Position numbers and translations under genes: made by a program. A model generated the notes under the pieces. That model was given only the letters and a program-made list of their open reading frames with translations. It was not told where the DNA came from and ran no database searches. This document shows, in pieces, positions 780-23,705 of a DNA stretch of 23,874 bases (position 1 is the first letter of the stretch; each line of letters opens with the position of its first letter). The stretch lies in NCBI GenBank assembly GCA_024644775.1, contig JAHEHB010000024.1, positions 1 to 23,874 on the forward strand. Reading direction: 5' to 3'. The stretch comes from Deltaproteobacteria bacterium (GTDB lineage Bacteria; Desulfobacterota; Desulfobacteria; Desulfobacterales; SURF-15).

Positions 780-1373
780 ATGCAAAAAAATGCGATATTA
801 CGAATTTGTTTGAGTGTCCTGGTTATTGCCGTTCTGATGACCGGCTGCGTAGCCATGCAGAAACCGAGTGAGAGTAATTTCAAGAGCCCGACTATTACGC
901 TGAGCCATGTGGAATTGGAGCATTATTTCGGCTGGTGGTTTTACGGTGCCAAGGTGAAGCCCGACAAAGGCAAGGCCGGCAATAACGGCGCACCATTGGA
1001 CTACGCCTTCATTTTTGAAATCACAAATCCCAACAATTATCCGGTAATGTTGGAGGGTTTCAGCTTTTCAGTTGCCTTTGAAGAGTTCGGACTTAACAGG
1101 GTTATTGCCCCCGAGACCATGTGGATACCCGCTGGTAAGACCAATCAGATGCGGATACACGCTTTATTCGATGTCAGGCCGGTACAAATGAGCCTGCTGG
1201 TGACCGGCGGATTTAAGTTGAAAGAAAAAGGGATTAGCTTCTGGGATCAACTCGAAAAATGGTGGACCGGAGCACCGGATTTTTCATTTCCGCTCAATGT
1301 AAATGAGGGGTCGGCGGTATTCAAGGCCGACGGTCTGACCAGAGTAGTACCTTTCAACGCTACATTTCCTTGA
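780..1373 (+). CDS. LEA14-like (LEA type 2 / WHy domain) lipoprotein
   Basis: 197-residue predicted lipoprotein. A hydrophobic signal segment (residues 5-20) leads to the lipobox LMTGC with the lipidated Cys at position 23. The mature part starts the beta-rich LEA2/WHy fold at about residue 37. Its typical signature is 'FIFEITNPNNYPVMLEGFSFSVAF' split over residues 78-100, followed by a 'PAGKT' turn and further strands. Proteins of this family sit in the periplasm or on the outer membrane; no enzymatic role is known. It begins 26 bp after livF behind a purine-rich GAGAGGG, so it may be cotranscribed with livF. A conserved Trp-rich stretch (FGWWFYG) and 'FWDQLEKWW' suggest membrane or partner contact, which is inference. 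Function unknown. Confidence 0.8.
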   Translation: MQKNAILRICLSVLVIAVLMTGCVAMQKPSESNFKSPTITLSHVELEHYFGWWFYGAKVKPDKGKAGNNGAPLDYAFIFEITNPNNYPVMLEGFSFSVAFEEFGLNRVIAPETMWIPAGKTNQMRIHALFDVRPVQMSLLVTGGFKLKEKGISFWDQLEKWWTGAPDFSFPLNVNEGSAVFKADGLTRVVPFNATFP

Positions 1374-8159: not shown

Positions 8160-8711
8160 TTAGGGGCCGTAGATGACGACGAGTAATTCTGTTTTTTGTT
8201 TTCCGATGTTTCTCATTTTGTGCCGGACACCGGAATTAAAATGAAGGGAGTCACCGGTCGCCAGTTTGTTGACGTGTTCGCCCACAGTCACTTCGATTTT
8301 CCCGGACAACACATATACAAACTCTTCCCCCTCATGTAAATAACCGACCCCTGTGTGCTCCTTCATCGCATCGACGGTGACACGAAACCCTTTCAGGTGT
8401 TTATTTTCCGCCCCGGGTGTCAAGGTTGTATAGGCATAGTTTTCCGTGCGTTTGGTGTATGCTTTAATACGCTGGTTTAGGTTGGCTTCCTGCTCCCGTA
8501 AGAAAAAACCGGATTCTAAATCCAACGCTCTGGAGATGGTCAAAAGTGTACCCACCGGAGGGATTTCTTTGCCCGCCTCGATTTTTTTAAGGTAGTCAAT
8601 TGAATATCCGGTTTCGTTGGCCATCCAGTCGAGGGTCAATTTTTTTTGTTCCCTGACCTTTTTGATTTGCTTTCCCACGGGTTCGATGGTGTCTGCTTTT
8701 TTTCTCGCCAT
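8160..8711 (-). CDS. XRE-family HTH transcriptional regulator with C-terminal cupin
   Basis: 183 residues. A lambda-repressor-like helix-turn-helix occupies residues 12-66 (IKKVREQKKLTLDWMANETG, then IDYLKKIEAGKEIPPVGTL). A single cupin_2 barrel occupies about 112-182, with HEGEEFVYVLSGKIEV and GDSLHFNSGVRHKM as its two cupin motifs. It is likely a dimeric repressor or activator that senses a small molecule in the cupin pocket. Its ATG at 8711 is preceded by AAAGGAGT. That ribosome site overlaps one end of a 32-bp palindrome (8721-8752), which suggests autoregulation. The acyl-CoA dehydrogenase gene starts about 60 bp downstream. A paralogue of the same architecture lies at 18045-18683. The effector is unknown; an acyl-CoA is an attractive guess. 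Confidence 0.9.
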   Translation of the reverse strand: MARKKADTIEPVGKQIKKVREQKKLTLDWMANETGYSIDYLKKIEAGKEIPPVGTLLTISRALDLESGFFLREQEANLNQRIKAYTKRTENYAYTTLTPGAENKHLKGFRVTVDAMKEHTGVGYLHEGEEFVYVLSGKIEVTVGEHVNKLATGDSLHFNSGVRHKMRNIGKQKTELLVVIYGP

Positions 8712-11070: not shown

Positions 11071-14000
11071 TTACATATTCCGCCGATACTTTCCGCCAAC
11101 TTCAAAAAGGGCCTGCGTAATTTGGCCCAGAGTGCAAACCCGAACGGTATCCATCAACTCTGCAAAAATGTTTTCGCCGGACAGCGCGACTTTCTGAAGG
11201 TGTTTCAGCGCGTCCGGTGACCGGTTTTTATTTCGTTTTTTTAATTCATTCAGCCGTCTTAACTGGGATTGTTTCTCCTGTTCGGTTGCCCGGGTCAGTT
11301 CAACGGACTCACTGAGTTCTTCGCCGGTCGCATCGGGATCTCGAAACGTGTTTACACCAATAATAGGGATCTGTCCATCGTGCTTCAGCGATTCGTAAAA
11401 GATCGATTCTTCCTGAATGCTGCTTCTCTGATACCCGGTTTCCATGGCACCTAATACACCACCGCGTTCATTTATCCGATCAAATTCCATAAGAACGGCT
11501 TCTTCAACGAGTTGGGTTAACTCTTCCACAATATAGCTGCCCTGGTTCATATTTTCGTTTTTTGCGGGTCCCCACTCACGATTAATGATAAGCTGAATCG
11601 ATAGCGCGCGCCTCACCGATTCGCGGCTTGGTGTGGTAATGGCTTCATCGAACGCATTCGTGTGTAGACTATTGCAGTTGTCGTATACGGCACAGAGAGC
11701 CTGCAGCGTTGTTCTTATATCGTTGAATTGAATGTCCTGACTGTGAAGGGATCGGCCCGATGTTTGAATATGATACTTTAACATTTGAGATCTTTCGTCA
11801 CCACCGTATTTTTCCCGCATTGCAACTGCCCATATACGGCGTGCGACCCTTCCAATCACCGTATACTCGGGATCCATTCCATTTGAGAAGAAAAAAGACA
11901 GATTCGGAGCAAAACTGTCAATCGTCATCCCACGGGATAGGTAATATTCGACGTATGTAAATCCGTTGGCCAGCGTAAAGGCGAGTTGTGTAATCGGGTT
12001 GGCACCCGCCTCTGCGATATGATAGCCGGATATGGATACAGAATAAAAGTTGCGGATATCATTTTCGATGAAATATTCTTGGATATCTCCCATCATTTTC
12101 AACGAAAAATCGATGGAAAAGATACACGTATTTTGCCCCTGATCCTCTTTGAGAATATCTGCTTGTACGGTTCCACGAACGGTAGACAATACCATGGATC
12201 GAATGTTGTTTTTTTCTTCCTCTGCGGGATTTCTTCCATTCTCGGTTTTAAACCGATCGAATTGCTGATCGATGGCCGCATTTAGAAACATGGCAAGGAT
12301 AATCGGAGCCGGACCATTGATGGTCATAGAAACCGACGTATTGGGCGCACACAGATCAAACCCGCCATATAAGGTTTTCATATCATCCAGTGTGCAGATG
12401 CTAACACCCGAGGTGCCGACCTTTCCATAAATGTCCGGGCGACTATCCGGGTCGTAACCGTACAATGTCACGGAATCAAAAGCCGTGGACAATCGCTTGG
12501 CCTCAGAATCGGCAGACAGCAGTTTAAATCGATTGTTTGTTCTCGCAGCATCCCCTTCGCCGGCAAACATTCGTGTGGGGGTTTCATCTATCCGTTTCAA
12601 TGGAAATACACCGGCTGTAAAGGGGAATCGGCCCGGAACATTTTCTTTTCGTAACCATTTATAAATCTCTCCAGGATCTTTGAACTTGGGAAGTGCGATT
12701 TTGGGAACTTTTGTGTGCGACAGAGATTCCGAAAAAAGCGGTACTCGGATCTGGTGATCTCTTACCTGGTAAATCAGCTCGTCTTTATTGTATATTGATT
12801 GAATATCTTTCCACTCTTTCAGAATCTGTTGGGTCTCTGCATCTAAAGCCGTTTCTGCTTTGGCGCATTCTTTTTTCAATCGTTCGATCAGAACGGTCGT
12901 ATCCTGTGTCTCATTTGAATCGATTGCCTTCAACGCTTCATTCAAATGCCAGAATTGCCGGACGGCTTCTGCCTGGGTTTCCGTGTGATGATCGTATTGG
13001 CGAATCGTTTCCGTAATTTCCGATAGGTAACGTACACTTGTGGGTGGGATAACAATTGTCTTCGATGTTGAGGTCTTTCGGTGCGGTTTTGCCAGTTTGG
13101 AATTAAAGTTTACGCCCGTTTTTTCGGCGATGGTTTCCAGAACGGCATGATAAAGGGCCGTAACACCGTCGTCATTAAACTTAGATGCCATCGTTCCGAA
13201 TACCGGCATGTCTTCCAGCGCCGTGTTGTAGGCCCTCCGGTTTCGTTGAAGCTGTTTCCGAACATCCCGAACCGCATCTTCACCGCCCCTTTTTTCAAAC
13301 TTGTTTACAGCAACAAGATCCGCGTAATCGAGCATATCAATTTTTTCAAGCTGGGATGCCGCACCAAATTCACTGGTCATGACATAGATCGAAGCATCGG
13401 AAATATCGGTAATGGTGGAATCTCCTTGCCCAATGCCGGCTGTCTCTGCGATGATGAGACCGAATCCGGCGGCTTTTAGCACTTCAATGGCGTCGGTCAT
13501 CGCCTCCGATATTTCCGTTCTGGATTGGCGCGTGGCCAGAGAGCGCATGTAAACTCGATGGCTTCCGATTGCATTCATGCGTATTCGATCACCCAGCAGG
13601 GCGCCACCGGTTTTTCGCCGAGAGGGATCACAGCTGACAATAGCGATGGTTATGCCTTTTAGATCAAGCCGCAGGCGCACGATCAGTTCATCGGTCAGAG
13701 ACGATTTCCCGGAACCACCGGGACCGGTAATTCCCAATACCGGTGTTATTCGATTTTCAACCTTTTTTTGAAGCTCGGTTCGAAGGGCTTCAATATATCC
13801 ATCTCCACTGATTTTTCTCTGTTCGACGGCGGTGATCAGATTCGCCACCAACCGTTTATTTTCCGGTTCCAGGTTGCTTTGATCGTAGGTGTTTTTGTTT
13901 ATTGTGGAAAAATCCAGCAGCCGGACCATGTGATTTATGATTCCTTGGAGACCGTATCTGGCTCCATCTTCCGGGGTGTAAATCTTGGCAATACCGTATG

Positions 14001-14346
14001 CTTCCAATTCTTTGATTTCGCTTGAAATAATAACACCGCCGCCACCACCGAATACTTTGACATGGGAGGCGTTTCTTTCAGCAAGCAAGTCTATGATATA
14101 TTTAAAGAACTCTACATGACCGCCCTGATAGCTCGATACCGCCGCGCCTTGGGCATCCTCTTCCACGGCAGCATTTACGATTTCTTCTGCCGATCGATTA
14201 TGCCCTAAATGTATGACTTCGACACCCGTATCCTGCAGTATTCTTCGCATGATGTTTATGGAGGCATCATGACCGTCAAACAGAGAAGTTGCCGTCACCA
14301 CACGGATAGGATGCTTCGGCCGGTAGACTTTCACTTCAGTGTTCAT
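11071..14346 (-). CDS. icmF: Fused isobutyryl-CoA mutase IcmF (B12 domain - G3E GTPase - mutase)
   Basis: 1091 residues from the ATG at 14346 (AAGGAGG upstream); an in-frame ATG at 14403 lacks such a site. Adenosylcobalamin enzyme interconverting isobutyryl-CoA and n-butyryl-CoA, with its own chaperone GTPase. Domains: B12-binding 13-140, with axial ligand His26 in LFDGHDAS and FGGGGGV at 99-105; MeaB-like GTPase about 200-415, with P-loop GPGGSGKSS (208-216, Lys214) and TAGIGQGD (302-309); linker about 420-560; mutase TIM barrel about 570-1091, including [14 protein letters not shown] and [13 protein letters not shown]. The residues that separate mutases read Phe594 (RMFAGEG) and Gln738 ([10 protein letters not shown]). 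Methylmalonyl-CoA mutase has Tyr and Arg there, so isobutyryl/butyryl specificity is supported. The GTPase base motif reads NKFE (348-351) rather than NKxD. First gene of the icmF-thlA-hbd unit. Confidence 0.96.
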
Positions 14347-14437
14347 GGTTCCTCCTTTTTCAGTATTGTGACATTCAAATGAGGATGACTCGAGAAATGG
14401 CAACGCGACGTGCCTTTTTTCAGGATTCGAATCATTT

Positions 14438-17944: not shown

Positions 17945-18044
17945 ATATTAATAAATTTCAAAATATTACAAAATGAGAGAAATGAATTCTTAGGATGAAC
18001 CAGTAAGCGTCTGATTGAGAAGCGGTTGGAATGAGGAGTCTATG

Positions 18045-18683
18045 ATGGAAAAGAAAGGCGATGTTCCCCATATTAATGTCGATTTTTTTGAAGATCTTAC
18101 CGGTACCATTGCAAGAGAAAAAGAAACGGGTCTGGAAGATATCGGCCAGCGAGTCCGGAGCCTGAGAGAGCAGAAGGGCTTGTCGCTTGGCGCGCTTTCG
18201 AAATTGACTGGTTTTGAAATTGAATTTCTATCCGGCATTGAGAACAATCAAGTTAAACCCCAGCTTGGCACCCTTATAAAATTATCTAAAGCCTTGGACA
18301 GTGCCTTCAGTCGTCTTCTTTCAGGCACCGGTGAAAAGCTTTATTCAGTGACCCGTAAAGAAGAACAAAAAATTGTTTCCCGTTCTACGTCCCGCAAGGG
18401 TCAAAAGCAGATGTACACCTACAAGAGTCTCGCACCGGAAGTAAAGGGTCGCCACATGGAGGCTCTTATTGTTCAACTGGAAGAAACGCCTGAAGAAGAG
18501 ACTTCCGTTCATGAGGGAGAGGAATTTATATATGTGTTAAACGGTGTGGTGGTACTGAATATAGGAGATGACGTTTTTAATCTTAATCCGGGAGACAGTG
18601 CCTATTACTTATCCACGACACCGCATTTAATTACCGCAGAAGGTGGTAATGCAACGATTCTGGCTGTGCTTTATGAAGGATAG
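18045..18683 (+). CDS. XRE-family HTH regulator with C-terminal cupin (second copy)
   Basis: 212 residues from the ATG at 18045, placed six bases after GAGGAG; the overlapping ATG at 18042 would be too close to that site but is not excluded. An N-terminal tail of about 30 residues (KGDVPHINVDFFEDLTG) precedes the HTH (about 33-88: IGQRVRSLREQKGLSLGALS, IENNQVKPQLGTLIKLSKAL). A linker and a cupin_2 barrel (about 135-210: HEGEEFIYVLNGVVVLNIG, NPGDSAYYLSTTPHLI) complete it. The layout matches the regulator at 8160-8711 but with a longer N-terminus. It lies directly after the lyase gene and is convergent with mlaC. It probably controls the acyl-CoA genes; the ligand is unknown. Confidence 0.88.
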   Translation: MEKKGDVPHINVDFFEDLTGTIAREKETGLEDIGQRVRSLREQKGLSLGALSKLTGFEIEFLSGIENNQVKPQLGTLIKLSKALDSAFSRLLSGTGEKLYSVTRKEEQKIVSRSTSRKGQKQMYTYKSLAPEVKGRHMEALIVQLEETPEEETSVHEGEEFIYVLNGVVVLNIGDDVFNLNPGDSAYYLSTTPHLITAEGGNATILAVLYEG

Positions 18684-18761: not shown

Positions 18762-19499
18762 CTATCGGCTCGCATAAGCTTTTATTTCGTCGGAATCCAA
18801 CCAGAGCAACACAAAAAATTTTTTAATCAGAATCTGCCACGCATATTTACTTCTATTATAAATTCCTTTGAAGTTTATCGGCGCTTTTGAAGAGGTTTTA
18901 CTTTTTTGCTTCTCAAGCTTTGTTTTTAACCTCTCTATGAGCTGATCGGGTGTTTCTTTCATCAGAATCTGTTTAAACTGGGTTCGATAGTTTTTGACCA
19001 GGCTCACCCCTTCGATTCTCACATCGTAAATTCGCCACGTATTTTTCCGCATCCGCATTCGATACTCTACGGGAACTTCAATGCTATTTTCCCGAATAAT
19101 TTTGGTTTTAACGATCGCCTTGTTTTCGGAGATCATTTCCTGGGCTTGATAAACGATTTTTTCGTTCCGAAACTCCCCCTGTATCCTATCAATATACGTG
19201 TTGCTCAGAAATCGTGAAAATACATCTGTAAATTTGTTTTGCTGCTCCGGGGTTAATTTTTTCCAGCTTCTTGCTAACGTCCGTATGGAAATTTCCCGAA
19301 AGTCGAAAACGTTCTGTGTGATCTGCCATATTTTTTCCCTTTGAGTCGATTTTTTTGCCGTATCCTTGTATTGAGGATCTTTGAGAGTGCGGATTACTTC
19401 ATCAATGGGCTCCCGCAGCGCATCCATCGGTTGAGTACTGTGGGCGATATAAGGGATACTAAACAACAGTAAAAAACAGATTATTTGAATTCGTTTCAT
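18762..19499 (-). CDS. mlaC: MlaC-type periplasmic phospholipid-binding protein
   Basis: 245 residues. Signal peptide about 1-22 (hydrophobic IICFLLLFSIPYIAHS), then the MlaC/Ttg2D fold. Characteristic segments are QITQNVFDFREISIRTLARSWKKLTPEQQNKF, FLSNTYIDRI, VEYRMRMRKNTWRIYDVRIEGVSLVKNYRTQF. MlaC shuttles phospholipid between the outer-membrane MlaA complex and the inner-membrane MlaFED complex. It is last in the mlaEFDC set, 30 bp after mlaD. The C-terminus is extended by about 40 residues (KLEKQKSKTSSKAPINFKG, then a hydrophobic WQILIKKFFVLLWL helix) beyond the usual MlaC end. That extension might anchor the protein to the membrane, which is inference. It converges with the XRE-cupin gene, leaving a 78-bp gap with only a weak GGGT/ACCC hairpin. 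Confidence 0.9.
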   Translation of the reverse strand: MKRIQIICFLLLFSIPYIAHSTQPMDALREPIDEVIRTLKDPQYKDTAKKSTQREKIWQITQNVFDFREISIRTLARSWKKLTPEQQNKFTDVFSRFLSNTYIDRIQGEFRNEKIVYQAQEMISENKAIVKTKIIRENSIEVPVEYRMRMRKNTWRIYDVRIEGVSLVKNYRTQFKQILMKETPDQLIERLKTKLEKQKSKTSSKAPINFKGIYNRSKYAWQILIKKFFVLLWLDSDEIKAYASR

Positions 19500-19529: not shown

Positions 19530-19976
19530 TCACACTTTGCCAAATACATATTTGCTGATAAGTTCTTCTAAATCGATGGCTGGTTCTGTTTCGGTAATAA
19601 AATCACCGGGCTTAAGCACGTCATCTGATCCGCCGGGTGACAATTTTATATATTTGTCTCCAATTAGTCCAGCTGTTTTGATCGACGCAATAACATCGTC
19701 TTTTAATTCAATTCCCTTTAGAATTTTGAGCGTAACAACCGCCTCCAGTTTGTCACGATCCAGTGATATGGCATCCACTTTTCCAACACGAACCCCTGCC
19801 ATTTCCACTTGGGTTCCCGGCACCAGCCCGGATACAGACTGAAACCGTGCATGGAGGGGATAGTAACCTTCGTCAAACCATCCCAGCTCTCCTAACTGAA
19901 TCGATAGATAACCGATACAAATGATACCGATTAGCACAAACACGCCAATCCATAATTCAATGGACGATCTTTTCAT
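19530..19976 (-). CDS. mlaD: MlaD, MCE-domain inner-membrane protein
   Basis: 148 residues. An N-terminal transmembrane helix (about 9-27, LWIGVFVLIGIICIGYLSI) is followed by one MCE domain (about 38-114: YPLHARFQSVSGLVPGTQVEMAG, VRVGKVDAISL, GDKYIKLSPGG). A short amphipathic tail (DLEELISKYVFG) ends the protein. It forms the periplasmic hexameric ring on MlaE that passes lipid to or from MlaC. It lies 8 bp after mlaF and is clearly in the same operon. It is shorter than the enterobacterial protein (about 180) because the C-terminal tail is reduced. Confidence 0.93.
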   Translation of the reverse strand: MKRSSIELWIGVFVLIGIICIGYLSIQLGELGWFDEGYYPLHARFQSVSGLVPGTQVEMAGVRVGKVDAISLDRDKLEAVVTLKILKGIELKDDVIASIKTAGLIGDKYIKLSPGGSDDVLKPGDFITETEPAIDLEELISKYVFGKV

Positions 19977-19984
19977 TCTACCTC

Positions 19985-21196
19985 CTAACTGAAACTGAAT
20001 TCAGCGAATGTGTTTTGTGTCGATTCCGCTAATTCAAGCAATTCTTCTAACCGGCTATCCACCGTTGCTTCTGCAAACCCCGCGCTTACGGAAAAATAAA
20101 AGTCCGGATAGGGTTCCCTATCAATTATCTCATCGCACTTCAATTCCTGCGCCAATTTTGAACAGATCTGATGTGCTTGATCCGTATTCGTATTGGGAAG
20201 AAGCAGCATGAGTGTGTTAAAACCATATTTAACGCAAGTATCTGTAATTCTTGTTTTTTTTTGTACTTGATCCGCAAGGCTTTTCAGTACAGTCATCCCG
20301 ACGGCGTGTCCTGCGGTTTCATTGATTTTATCCAAATTGTCCAGCCTTAAGACGATTATCGAAAACGGAAGTTGTCGACGTGACAGCCATGCCAACCCTT
20401 CTTTGAACCGTTTTTCACTTTGCGGATGGGGCGTCATACCGGTTAACGCGTCCTGACGGCTCTCAAGGCCACGAACAAATTCTTGAATCACCGGGTCAGA
20501 TGATTGACGGATCTGTTCGGGACTTCCTTCAAAGTGAATCCGGCCATCATTTAACATGGCGATGCGCTGTGAAATATAAAATATATCAGGGATCTCGTGG
20601 CTTACCACGACGCCTGTAAATCCGAACTTTTTTTGAAAGTCAGAAATCAGGTGATGAACAGCGCTCTTGCGAATTGGATCCAGCCCCGTGGTGGGTTCAT
20701 CAAACAAAACAATTTCAGGGTCGGTAACCAATGCTCTGGCCAGGGCCACCCGTTTTCGCATCCCACCTGAAAGCTGAGAGGGATACTTATCATCGATTTG
20801 TTCGATATCTAGCTGTTCCATGCGGTCACCGGCGAGTTTTCGGATATCGGGATCCGGCAACGTTGTTCGTTCTTTCAGGGGAAGCGCAATATTCTCGTAG
20901 ACCGTCATGGAATCAAAAAGAGCGGTGCCCTGAAACATATAGCTGATTTTGCGTTTCAAAGCTTTTCTTTCTTTTTTTTTCATCTCTGAAAGCGGGCGGC
21001 CGTCAAACAGCACGGCTCCGGAATCCGGTTCCAGAAGGCCGATAATATGCTTGAGTAGAACACTCTTTCCGACGCCACTTTTTCCGATTATGGTTGTAAT
21101 TTCACCTCGATAGATACCAAGATTCGTATTGTTTAAAACCTGTAGGTTTCCGAATTGTTTTGACACGTTTTCCAACTGAATGATCGGTTGTTTCAT
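19985..21196 (-). CDS. mlaF: MlaF ATPase fused to a degenerate GGDEF-like domain
   Basis: 403 residues, about 140 longer than ordinary MlaF. Residues 1-247 are a complete ABC ATPase: Walker A GKSGVGKS (38-45), Q-loop FQG (88-90), signature LSGGM (142-146), Walker B IVLFDEP (162-168) and His200. It energises lipid transfer by MlaE/MlaD. Residues 249-403 look like a GGDEF domain: DALTGM (249-254), a KINETAGHAVG strand-helix (290-300), YGFNTLMLLLP (324-334), FSVSAGFAEA (368-377) and a LLELAESTQNTF C-terminal helix. The active site is dead by sequence: the metal Asp is Arg284, GGDEF reads G-F-N-T-L (325-329) and the GD Asp is Met301. The inhibitory-site motif RxxD is kept as R316-I-T-D319, five residues before the GGDEF position, so c-di-GMP binding is plausible. 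There is no clear Shine-Dalgarno at the ATG at 21196, only 6 bp after mlaE, suggesting translational coupling. Confidence 0.93.
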   Translation of the reverse strand: MKQPIIQLENVSKQFGNLQVLNNTNLGIYRGEITTIIGKSGVGKSVLLKHIIGLLEPDSGAVLFDGRPLSEMKKKERKALKRKISYMFQGTALFDSMTVYENIALPLKERTTLPDPDIRKLAGDRMEQLDIEQIDDKYPSQLSGGMRKRVALARALVTDPEIVLFDEPTTGLDPIRKSAVHHLISDFQKKFGFTGVVVSHEIPDIFYISQRIAMLNDGRIHFEGSPEQIRQSSDPVIQEFVRGLESRQDALTGMTPHPQSEKRFKEGLAWLSRRQLPFSIIVLRLDNLDKINETAGHAVGMTVLKSLADQVQKKTRITDTCVKYGFNTLMLLLPNTNTDQAHQICSKLAQELKCDEIIDREPYPDFYFSVSAGFAEATVDSRLEELLELAESTQNTFAEFSFS

Positions 21197-21202
21197 GATT
21201 AT

Positions 21203-22006
21203 TTACAATAAAAAGGAGGTCAATATATAGTCGGCTATCAGTACCACAACACACGAACTCACCACCGCTGATGTGGTGGAAAGACTCACCCCTTTGGCTC
21301 CAAAACCTTCCGTACGTGTATGGGTGTAGAATCCCTGGTAACAGCAAATGGTTGCGACGAGAAGTGAAAAAACAATTGATTTGATAAACCCGCCGTTTAT
21401 ATCTTCCATTAAAACACTCGTTTCCAACCGGGAAAAGTAAAGCCCCGGATTAATGTCAAGCAGAAGCGATCCTGTCACAAACCCGCCTAATATACCGATA
21501 ACATCAAATATTGCGGTAAGAATTGGAAAACTGAAGAGTGATGCGGCCATGCGAGGGCTCACGAGAAACCGGGTGGGATTGATATCCATGGTTTCCAGTG
21601 CATCGATTTGTTCGGAAATCCGCATGATGCCGATTTCTGCTGCCATGGCCGACCCTGCTCTTCCAATAACCATTATCGCTGTCAGCACCGGACCCAATTC
21701 ACGTATTAAAGTAAGCGCAACAGCCGCACCGAGCAACCCCTCAGAGCCGAATTGCGCTAATGTGTAATATCCCTGAAGCCCCAAAACCATTCCCGAGAAT
21801 GCGCCGGTTAGACAGATAACCAGTAATGACTTTGCACCAATGAAAAACACTTGGTGTAGAATTTTATTGGTTTGAAACGGAAGAGAAAAAATGAGAAAAA
21901 AGCCTTTGAAAAAAAAGATTGCAACTTTCCCGAGTTCTTGGATGAATGTAAGCGTCCATCTACCCAATGCTGACAACGGAGTTATTACTACCGAATCCAG
22001 TACCAT
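21203..22006 (-). CDS. mlaE: MlaE, phospholipid ABC transporter permease
   Basis: 267 residues. An N-terminal amphipathic region is followed by about five membrane helices. The family hallmark is IRELGPVLTAIMVIGRAGSAMAAEIG (about 101-126), then RISEQIDALETMDINPTRFLVSPRMAA, the coupling segment that contacts MlaF. It is the inner-membrane channel of the Mla retrograde phospholipid transporter and first gene of mlaE-F-D-C. The ATG at 22006 has only a weak AGAAG upstream. A sigma-70-like promoter lies at 22068-22097, giving a leader of about 55 bases. Confidence 0.94.
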   Translation of the reverse strand: MVLDSVVITPLSALGRWTLTFIQELGKVAIFFFKGFFLIFSLPFQTNKILHQVFFIGAKSLLVICLTGAFSGMVLGLQGYYTLAQFGSEGLLGAAVALTLIRELGPVLTAIMVIGRAGSAMAAEIGIMRISEQIDALETMDINPTRFLVSPRMAASLFSFPILTAIFDVIGILGGFVTGSLLLDINPGLYFSRLETSVLMEDINGGFIKSIVFSLLVATICCYQGFYTHTRTEGFGAKGVSLSTTSAVVSSCVVVLIADYILTSFLL

Positions 22007-22716: not shown

Positions 22717-23139
22717 ATGCTAATCTACGACGACATATTTACCTGGGAAGGGTGGGGCGGTAAGCTCCGGCTTGCGAGTGGGCAATGTCGGCTGCGGATT
22801 TTTGATCTCGAAAAGAGCCAACACAAAGGGTTAACACACGTGCGGCCCATCGTCGCTATCGTGGCCGATGTTCCTGAAAGCCGAATGTCGGTGCGGAGCT
22901 GTTCAGGTCATATCGCCACCATGGTGACACAAACCTTCGGTATCGCTCCAACGCAAATGTTGTTTGTGGAACACTATCCGGCTGTGATTTATGGGAAAAA
23001 GGGTGAAAAAGTTATTCCAGAAAGATTCGACGCGGTGGCGTTCAAATGGTATGGCGATAAAGCCTTTCAACCAAAATGGCGAACGCTGAATCCCCCGATA
23101 CGGGATATACTAAAAAAAATGTTGGAAGCGTCCTCCTAG
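22717..23139 (+). CDS. Conserved-looking protein of unknown function, 140 residues
   Basis: Starts at the ATG at 22717 with AGGTGGAG (22701-22708) at proper distance. I do not recognise a characterised family. The protein is soluble, without a signal peptide or membrane helix. It is Trp/aromatic-rich at the start (YDDIFTWEGWGGKLRL), has a CRLRIFDL strand, a hydrophobic VRPIVAIVADVPE strand and a SCSGHIATMVTQTF helix. Later segments are FVEHYPAVIYG, IPERFDAVAFKWYG and PKWRTLNPPIRD. The mixed alpha/beta pattern and the polar conserved-type residues (His/Tyr/Trp/Arg) look like a real folded domain. It lies on the strand opposite to the Mla genes and splits mlaA from mlaE. Its stop codon overlaps that of the convergent secreted-protein gene. 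Confidence 0.75.
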   Translation: MLIYDDIFTWEGWGGKLRLASGQCRLRIFDLEKSQHKGLTHVRPIVAIVADVPESRMSVRSCSGHIATMVTQTFGIAPTQMLFVEHYPAVIYGKKGEKVIPERFDAVAFKWYGDKAFQPKWRTLNPPIRDILKKMLEASS

Positions 23140-23705
23140 AATTCCAGGAGCGGGGCAAGAATGGGTTTTTTATCCTTTTCGATGGGGAAAAAGCGATATC
23201 TTTGGTCGAGGTATTTTTCTTGCTGAATCTCGTTTACCTGGTTGGACACGGGGGTATAGTAAAACGACAGCTTCATAACGCCGTCTGTTATGTAATGTTT
23301 TAATTTGATTTTTATTTTCTTATATTTCCAACTATAAATCCTTTGTTCGTTTTTTATGGTCAACGAGAGTTTGGGTTCTCCGTATCTGTCGGATAGATGT
23401 TGTCTGATTTTTCCGAATACTTCCAAGGATTCAATGTGGATATATACGGCAAAAAATCGGTCGGAATGGGATCCATAAATGACGTCTGAAACGGTCGTAT
23501 CTTCAACGGTGTAGACTTTTTTGAGGTTTCTGTAATAGGTGACATTTGCTTTGGTTTCCAATTCTTGAAACCCTTCTTGCGAGTCGAGTTTTATGCCCCA
23601 TTTTATTCCCAAAAAATCATCCCGCAGATCGGCAGCATTCGACGCCTCTATGAAAAAGACCGATAGAAATATAAAAAAGATTGTCAGCGCAACTCGCCTT
23701 TTCAT
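23136..23705 (-). CDS. Small secreted (periplasmic) protein downstream of mlaA
   Basis: 189 residues with a clear signal peptide (MKRR, then ALTIFFIFLSVFFIEASNA; cleavage probably before residue 25). The mature part is beta-rich: FLGIKWGIKLD, VTYYRNLKKVYTVED, SDRFFAVYIHIESLEVFGKIRQHLSDRYGEP, YSWKYKKIKIKLKHYI, MKLSFYYTP. The 'F.GI.WG' opening and the 'L...YGEP' segment recur in uncharacterised exported proteins of sulfate-reducer-type genomes, as far as I recall. It starts 18 bp after the mlaA stop with GGAGAA upstream, so it is probably in the mlaA operon and may act in the periplasm with that system. The function is unknown. Confidence 0.78.
   Translation of the reverse strand: MKRRVALTIFFIFLSVFFIEASNAADLRDDFLGIKWGIKLDSQEGFQELETKANVTYYRNLKKVYTVEDTTVSDVIYGSHSDRFFAVYIHIESLEVFGKIRQHLSDRYGEPKLSLTIKNEQRIYSWKYKKIKIKLKHYITDGVMKLSFYYTPVSNQVNEIQQEKYLDQRYRFFPIEKDKKPILAPLLEF

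Follow-up and report, generated by a model that had tools for sequence, protein, structure and literature searches.

Could the ATPase of a phospholipid-transporting Mla system itself be a receptor for the second messenger c-di-GMP? The question is raised by a gene on a 23,874-nucleotide stretch of Desulfobacterota DNA (contig JAHEHB010000024.1; the whole stretch is called the window below), in which a MlaF-like ABC ATPase carries a degenerate GGDEF domain at its C-terminus. The gene, its parts and its operon neighbors are as follows:

19985..21196, minus strand: MlaF-like ABC ATPase and degenerate GGDEF domain in one chain of 403 aa
20465..21196, minus strand: MlaF-like nucleotide-binding domain (NBD), residues ~1-244, with Walker A K44, Q89, G144, D166/E167 and H200 present
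19988..20455, minus strand: degenerate GGDEF domain, residues 248-403 (Pfam match 248-392)
20240..20251, minus strand: I-site motif R316-I-T-D319
20210..20224, minus strand: GFNTL, residues 325-329, where the GGDEF signature is expected
20156..20158, minus strand: K347, 31 residues past R316, the third basic position of the I-site
21203..22006, minus strand: MlaE permease (PF02405, E 3.3e-78; TIGR00056 over cut-off)
19530..19976, minus strand: MlaD (TIGR04430, 162.9 bits, cut-off 135)
18762..19499, minus strand: MlaC (PF05494, E 2.4e-46)

The fusion of a MlaF-type ATPase to a GGDEF domain is a real observation. The sequence-only reading had assigned the C-terminal residues to the GGDEF fold, and this was borne out: the domain scored 67.3 bits against PF00990 (gathering cut-off 23.8) and was recognized as a GGDEF fold when modeled alone, which was done because the best 50 fold matches of the full-length model were ABC proteins. 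The best fold matches of the NBD were the MlaF structures of E. coli, A. baumannii and P. aeruginosa MlaFEDB, with OpuA chains also among the matches. We call the protein MlaF-like because it scored 198 bits against the NCBIfam MlaF equivalog NF008809, below the cut-off of 441. The proposed fusion to an Mla-type ATPase likewise held, within an mla operon whose MlaE, MlaD and MlaC genes adjoin the fusion gene on the same strand. The NBD alignment stops at about residue 245, and the GGDEF domain starts where the C-terminal extension of E. coli MlaF (residues 247-269) starts.

The window also encodes, at 11071-14403 on the minus strand, a 1110-aa ORF with B12-binding, MeaB GTPase and methylmalonyl-CoA mutase-type domains on a single polypeptide, which we take to resemble the fused mutase IcmF. 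Two HTH-cupin regulators (8160-8711, minus strand; 18015-18683, plus strand) lie amid a gene cluster that encodes acyl-CoA dehydrogenase, thiolase, enoyl-CoA hydratase, 3-hydroxyacyl-CoA dehydrogenase and HMGL-like products. Three ORFs have no significant Pfam match (780-1373, plus strand, 197 aa; 22717-23139, plus strand, 140 aa; 23136-23705, minus strand, 189 aa).

Judged by its residues, the GGDEF domain is catalytically dead: R284 occupies the position of the metal-binding Asp, M301 that of the GD Asp and GFNTL that of the signature, a combination that does not fit a diguanylate cyclase. These losses had been noted in the sequence-only reading together with an intact RxxD at I-site spacing, and both points stood, R316 and D319 lying five residues ahead of the signature position and aligning with the I-site mutations of DgcR. 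At the third basic position, K347 here and R395/R402 in PelD, ordinary GGDEF relatives have R (47/66) or K (10/66), and the work on PelD concerned Arg. In PelD of B. cereus, a change of R363, D366 or R395 abolished measurable c-di-GMP binding, according to the accessible part of the report (PMC7112168), and by analogy these residues are taken as counterparts of R316, D319 and K347.

Other fused MlaF proteins were found when sought, 24 database proteins having an architecture identical to that of the window protein. Across these 25 sequences, R316, D319 and C321 are invariant (25/25). Position 347 holds Lys 23 times, Arg once and Ala once; the D1 site is occupied by R, T, Q, C or A, and GFNTL- or GLNRI-type sequences stand in place of the signature. 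Of 389 genomes of one order, 95 gave matches to a domain alignment (E<=1e-25), and 94 of these were verified as fused from fetched loci; two short-frame matches (G076:C4, 142 aa, and G049:C124, 238 aa) were left out of these loci. All 116 domain ORFs from the fetched loci also hold the ATPase. The gene order is MlaE, MlaF-GGDEF, MlaD, MlaC at 60 of the 116 and MlaE, MlaF-GGDEF, MlaD at 22 more, the other fused loci lying at contig ends, being rearranged or having undetected neighbors. The 127 distinct proteins that we aligned came from loci (102) and from the database (25); two of them (L081, L082) belong to a second group, F2, and 125 to F1, the window protein's own lineage of MlaF-GGDEF fusions in Desulfobacterota. 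The alignment retains P0014, which is apparently chimeric, with an NBD unlike that of P0015 and a nearly identical C-terminal domain; three later F1 proteins stand outside the 125, two with RxxD (L218, L219) and one with E at 316 (L221).

No F1 protein has Asp at D1 (284) or GD (301), and none has a GG-type signature (0/125). D319 is present in 125/125 and R316 in 91/125 (otherwise Y 15, N 4, S 4, G 4, D 3, A 3 and T 1), with a basic residue (K or R) at 347 in 104 and all three I-site residues, R, D and K or R, in 77. By parsimony counts over the 127 aligned proteins (125 F1, two F2), no column among the 147 of the domain changes less often than D319 (rank 1), and R316 ranks 18, with 14 changes against a domain median of 33, whereas the catalytic positions change more (26 at D1, 24 and 21 at signature positions 327 and 328) and column 347 is average (rank 80/147). 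RxxD is thus better kept than the active site in F1, yet R316 is not universal: the state R316 or not-R changes at least nine times by parsimony on the 127-protein tree, at least four of these changes being forced by starred branches. The expected conservation of RxxD among homologs therefore stood for the 25 nearest sequences and failed further out, in part of F1 and in all examined members of F2 and a third group, F3. In a comparison of independent pairs, a basic residue at 347 showed no association with R316 (median p 1), and no joint loss of R316 and K347 was found; with only four pairs on starred branches, this comparison has little power.

Among the ordinary GGDEF domains nearest the family, RxxD occurs in 64 of 66, a baseline biased by having been taken from those nearest proteins. 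Because RxxD is the rule there, its presence alone reflects inheritance, and F1 may simply not yet have lost it. The informative point is instead what these alignments indicate to be a selective retention of RxxD in F1.

The proteins examined from both other fused groups lack the I-site. F2, a paralogous Mla system, forms one clade on the ATPase tree (100, starred) and includes L081:6863-8119 and L198-L217; of the 20 F2 genes fetched, 16 have detected Mla neighbors. Neither I-site residue remains in 22/22 F2 locus proteins or in 110/110 F2 database proteins longer than 380 aa, among 120 listed of 594 over threshold, the two sets overlapping. F3 comprises six distant MlaF-GGDEF fusions (L226-L231) from a phylum-wide sample in which 25 of 395 genomes had a match (26 matches, 9 of partial coverage left out); all six lack both residues and all six lie in MlaE-F-D-C operons. 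Among the three groups, the I-site is, from these comparisons, retained in F1 alone. Since F2 and F3 keep a recognizable GGDEF domain without either residue, D319 is not needed for folding, and the domain has a use independent of the I-site. An F1 copy is also carried by 11 of 17 genomes with fetched F2 loci and, with G007 and G004, by 13 genomes in all, and has Tyr at 316 in 11 of them and Arg in two; as these genomes are mostly one clade, this co-occurrence is not an independent association.

That use might be purely structural. The dead GGDEF domain would then only dimerize, or contact a protein, on behalf of the NBD pair, replacing the E. coli extension and/or MlaB, and RxxD in F1 would be a remnant or would serve protein contacts. 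We regard this as a real contender, at rather less than even odds. It would fit the I-site-free domains of F2 and F3, the repeated loss of R316 in F1 and the prevalence of RxxD in the nearest ordinary GGDEF domains, and the E. coli system offers a precedent: in the accessible part of PMC7367683, the 247-269 tail of MlaF grips the partner MlaF, the complex purified without this tail lacks both MlaF and MlaB, and forced GCN4 dimerization largely rescues MlaF lacking the extension.

The distribution of MlaB, the STAS subunit, bears on the same explanation. No STAS match was found among the window ORFs scanned, some small ORFs lying outside that scan, and ten small ORFs around the window's mla operon have no Pfam match, hence no STAS_2. 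Among relatives, 20 of them fused and 20 unfused, a search with PF13466 alone put the nearest STAS_2 match on an mla contig about 85 kb off, many of these contigs being short and several ending near the operon. The lack of a nearby match at the fused loci would suit a replacement of MlaB, but the 20 unfused operons, whose MlaF tails are short, likewise lack one. A clamp is thus dispensable in some Mla systems, and an either-or trade of the GGDEF domain for MlaB is unsupported. The scaffold explanation also sits less well with residues 316 and 319 being slow in F1 as opposed to lost in F2 and F3.

A different ligand or partner, such as a nucleotide or a partner protein, could instead be sensed through the element that replaces the active-site hairpin in F1, D-x-C-x-R-x-x-x-(N/D)-(K/R), in the region of residues 316-329 (window 20210-20251, minus strand). 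Its positions are well conserved in F1 (C321 120/125, R323 116/125, N or D at 327 116/125, K or R at 328 101/125), ordinary GGDEF relatives having mostly V, I, L, A or F at 321 (C in 6/66), and F2 keeps R323 in 110/110 and N327 in 98/110, among 120 listed of 594. However, R323 is constant in ordinary GGDEF domains too (45/45), which makes some of this conservation structural, and we consider a different ligand unlikely.

One branch (99, starred) separates the fused domains (37 F1, 22 F2) from 45 ordinary GGDEF domains, which fits a single capture of the domain without proving it. Both the domain tree, with 37 of the 125 F1 proteins, and the ATPase tree, with 46, were built quickly and leave many forks open. 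There are 20 unfused MlaF genes flanked by mla neighbors (MlaC undetected in one, L195); these genes, whose tails run about 2-20 residues past the ATPase match, nest among the fused ones, so the domain appears to have been lost several times; fused and unfused states change nine times on the ATPase tree, with at least three changes forced by starred branches. Because it has been lost, the domain is accessory or regulatory.

These losses, together with a median of 33 changes per column in the GGDEF domain versus 14 in the NBD, would also suit a degenerating passenger without function. Yet an open frame and the domain are kept in 125 F1, 110 F2 (among 120 listed of 594) and 6 F3 proteins, with conserved sites and mla context, and an assembly or frame artefact, the other half of this explanation, is ruled out by the 24 database relatives and the 116/116 fused domain ORFs. 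We consider it very improbable.

A pattern-limited scan of species representatives gave 135 stretches encoding a relative, of which 80 loci were kept and 55 left out. Eighteen of the 80 (L001-L018) are fused, and their titles name Desulfobacterales, Desulfobacteraceae, Deltaproteobacteria or genera of Desulfobacterota. Within the same scan, none of the 71 GGDEF ORFs at the other 62 loci holds an NBD, giving no case of the fusion outside Desulfobacterota. Viral contigs yielded no relative; 17 plasmid records matched, none covering 80% of the query, and the five shown cover about 3%, in ABC genes.

The messenger itself is probably available in fused genomes. GGDEF matches (E<=1e-10) occur in 65 of 66 genomes searched, and at least three in 45/45 verified fused genomes, the fused domain possibly being counted; G176, which is not a verified fused genome, is outside the 45. 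The counts of 0 (G112) and 1 (G180) both come from unfused genomes. No difference in GGDEF gene density was seen between 20 fused genomes of the R type and 20 unfused ones (p 0.21), or between the R type and 22 fused genomes of the non-R type (p 0.90), which gives no support to loss of the domain following a poor c-di-GMP network.

We favor, at a probability of roughly 45%, the explanation that a dead GGDEF domain was captured by the Mla ATPase as a dimerizing clamp and is gated by c-di-GMP in those F1 members that retain the I-site. ABC NBDs work as pairs, which would bring two fused GGDEF domains near each other, and the GGDEF pair would form an accessory dimerizing clamp on the NBDs. In PleD-type enzymes, two GGDEF domains are linked by dimeric c-di-GMP at the I-site. 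Where an F1 member retains the I-site, as the window protein does, c-di-GMP would bind R316 and D319 (perhaps also K347) and cross-link or re-orient both domains in a similar way, a step that may gate the ATPase cycle or the assembly of the NBDs on MlaE and place Mla phospholipid traffic under c-di-GMP control. Precedents for such a mechanism are the GCN4 rescue of E. coli MlaF and the c-di-AMP gating of the CBS-bearing ATPase OpuA/BusAA. As to direction, our guess is that the NBDs would be locked and transport slowed. In F2, F3 and R316-less F1 proteins, the domain would work without c-di-GMP or through an altered site.

The narrower proposal, in which the ATPase subunit is itself the receptor, I-site cross-linking of MlaF-fused GGDEF domains gates Mla traffic and the paralogous F2 is c-di-GMP-blind through loss of the I-site, is tentative, falling a little short of even odds. 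An accessory dimerizing domain that is also c-di-GMP-gated in I-site-bearing F1 is the simplest model covering the data, and its c-di-GMP step is the part that we infer. Against that step stand the repeated loss of R316, Lys as the third residue in a column of average rate, the lack of association between positions 347 and 316, the similar GGDEF gene densities, the domains of F2 and F3 without an I-site and the prevalence of RxxD in ordinary GGDEF domains. If the domain does bind c-di-GMP, it would give the messenger a direct input into a lipid-transporting ABC ATPase, comparable to the action of c-di-AMP on OpuA though with a different messenger, fold and cargo, Mla systems would gain a regulatory signal, and envelope lipid homeostasis would be tied to the biofilm and motility messenger in Desulfobacterota, with F1, F2 and F3 as natural I-site-plus and I-site-minus versions.

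The sequence-only reading knew of no system that couples MlaF to such a domain, and none of the titles listed from the literature searched, which covered few subscription papers and preprints, concerns such a fusion; the accessible main text of two c-di-GMP reviews (PMC12564702, PMC8846402) lacks the term 'ABC transporter'. Databases annotate both Pfam domains and name some of the proteins 'phospholipid/cholesterol/gamma-HCH transport system ATP-binding protein'. As far as we searched, the architecture is visible in databases but undiscussed.

The window locus resembles those of the MlaFEDB systems of E. coli, A. baumannii and P. aeruginosa in having a MlaF-like NBD with MlaE, MlaD and MlaC genes. 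E. coli MlaF, in contrast, has an extension of about 25 aa and binds MlaB (accessible part of PMC7367683), whereas here there is a GGDEF domain and no MlaB gene was seen nearby. The ammonium transporter-GGDEF fusion (PDB 8qj3, 8qj4, 8qpf) similarly has a GGDEF match on a transporter chain, but the chain is a named ammonium transporter and not an ABC ATPase. OpuA/BusAA and OpuCA also carry a second-messenger-type domain on an ABC ATPase subunit, the CBS-bearing ATPase of OpuA/BusAA being gated by c-di-AMP; these differ in using a CBS domain and c-di-AMP for osmolyte import in lactic acid bacteria, and c-di-AMP binding is shown there whereas c-di-GMP binding is predicted here (accessible part of PMC10243994). 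PelD and PopA share with the fusion a dead GGDEF domain with an intact RxxD, and binding by PelD needs the R, the D and a downstream R (PMC7112168, and PMC12564702 for PopA, in their accessible parts). PelD, however, controls a polysaccharide system, while the domain described here sits at the C-terminus of an ABC ATPase, has Lys as its third residue and has lost the Arg in part of its family.
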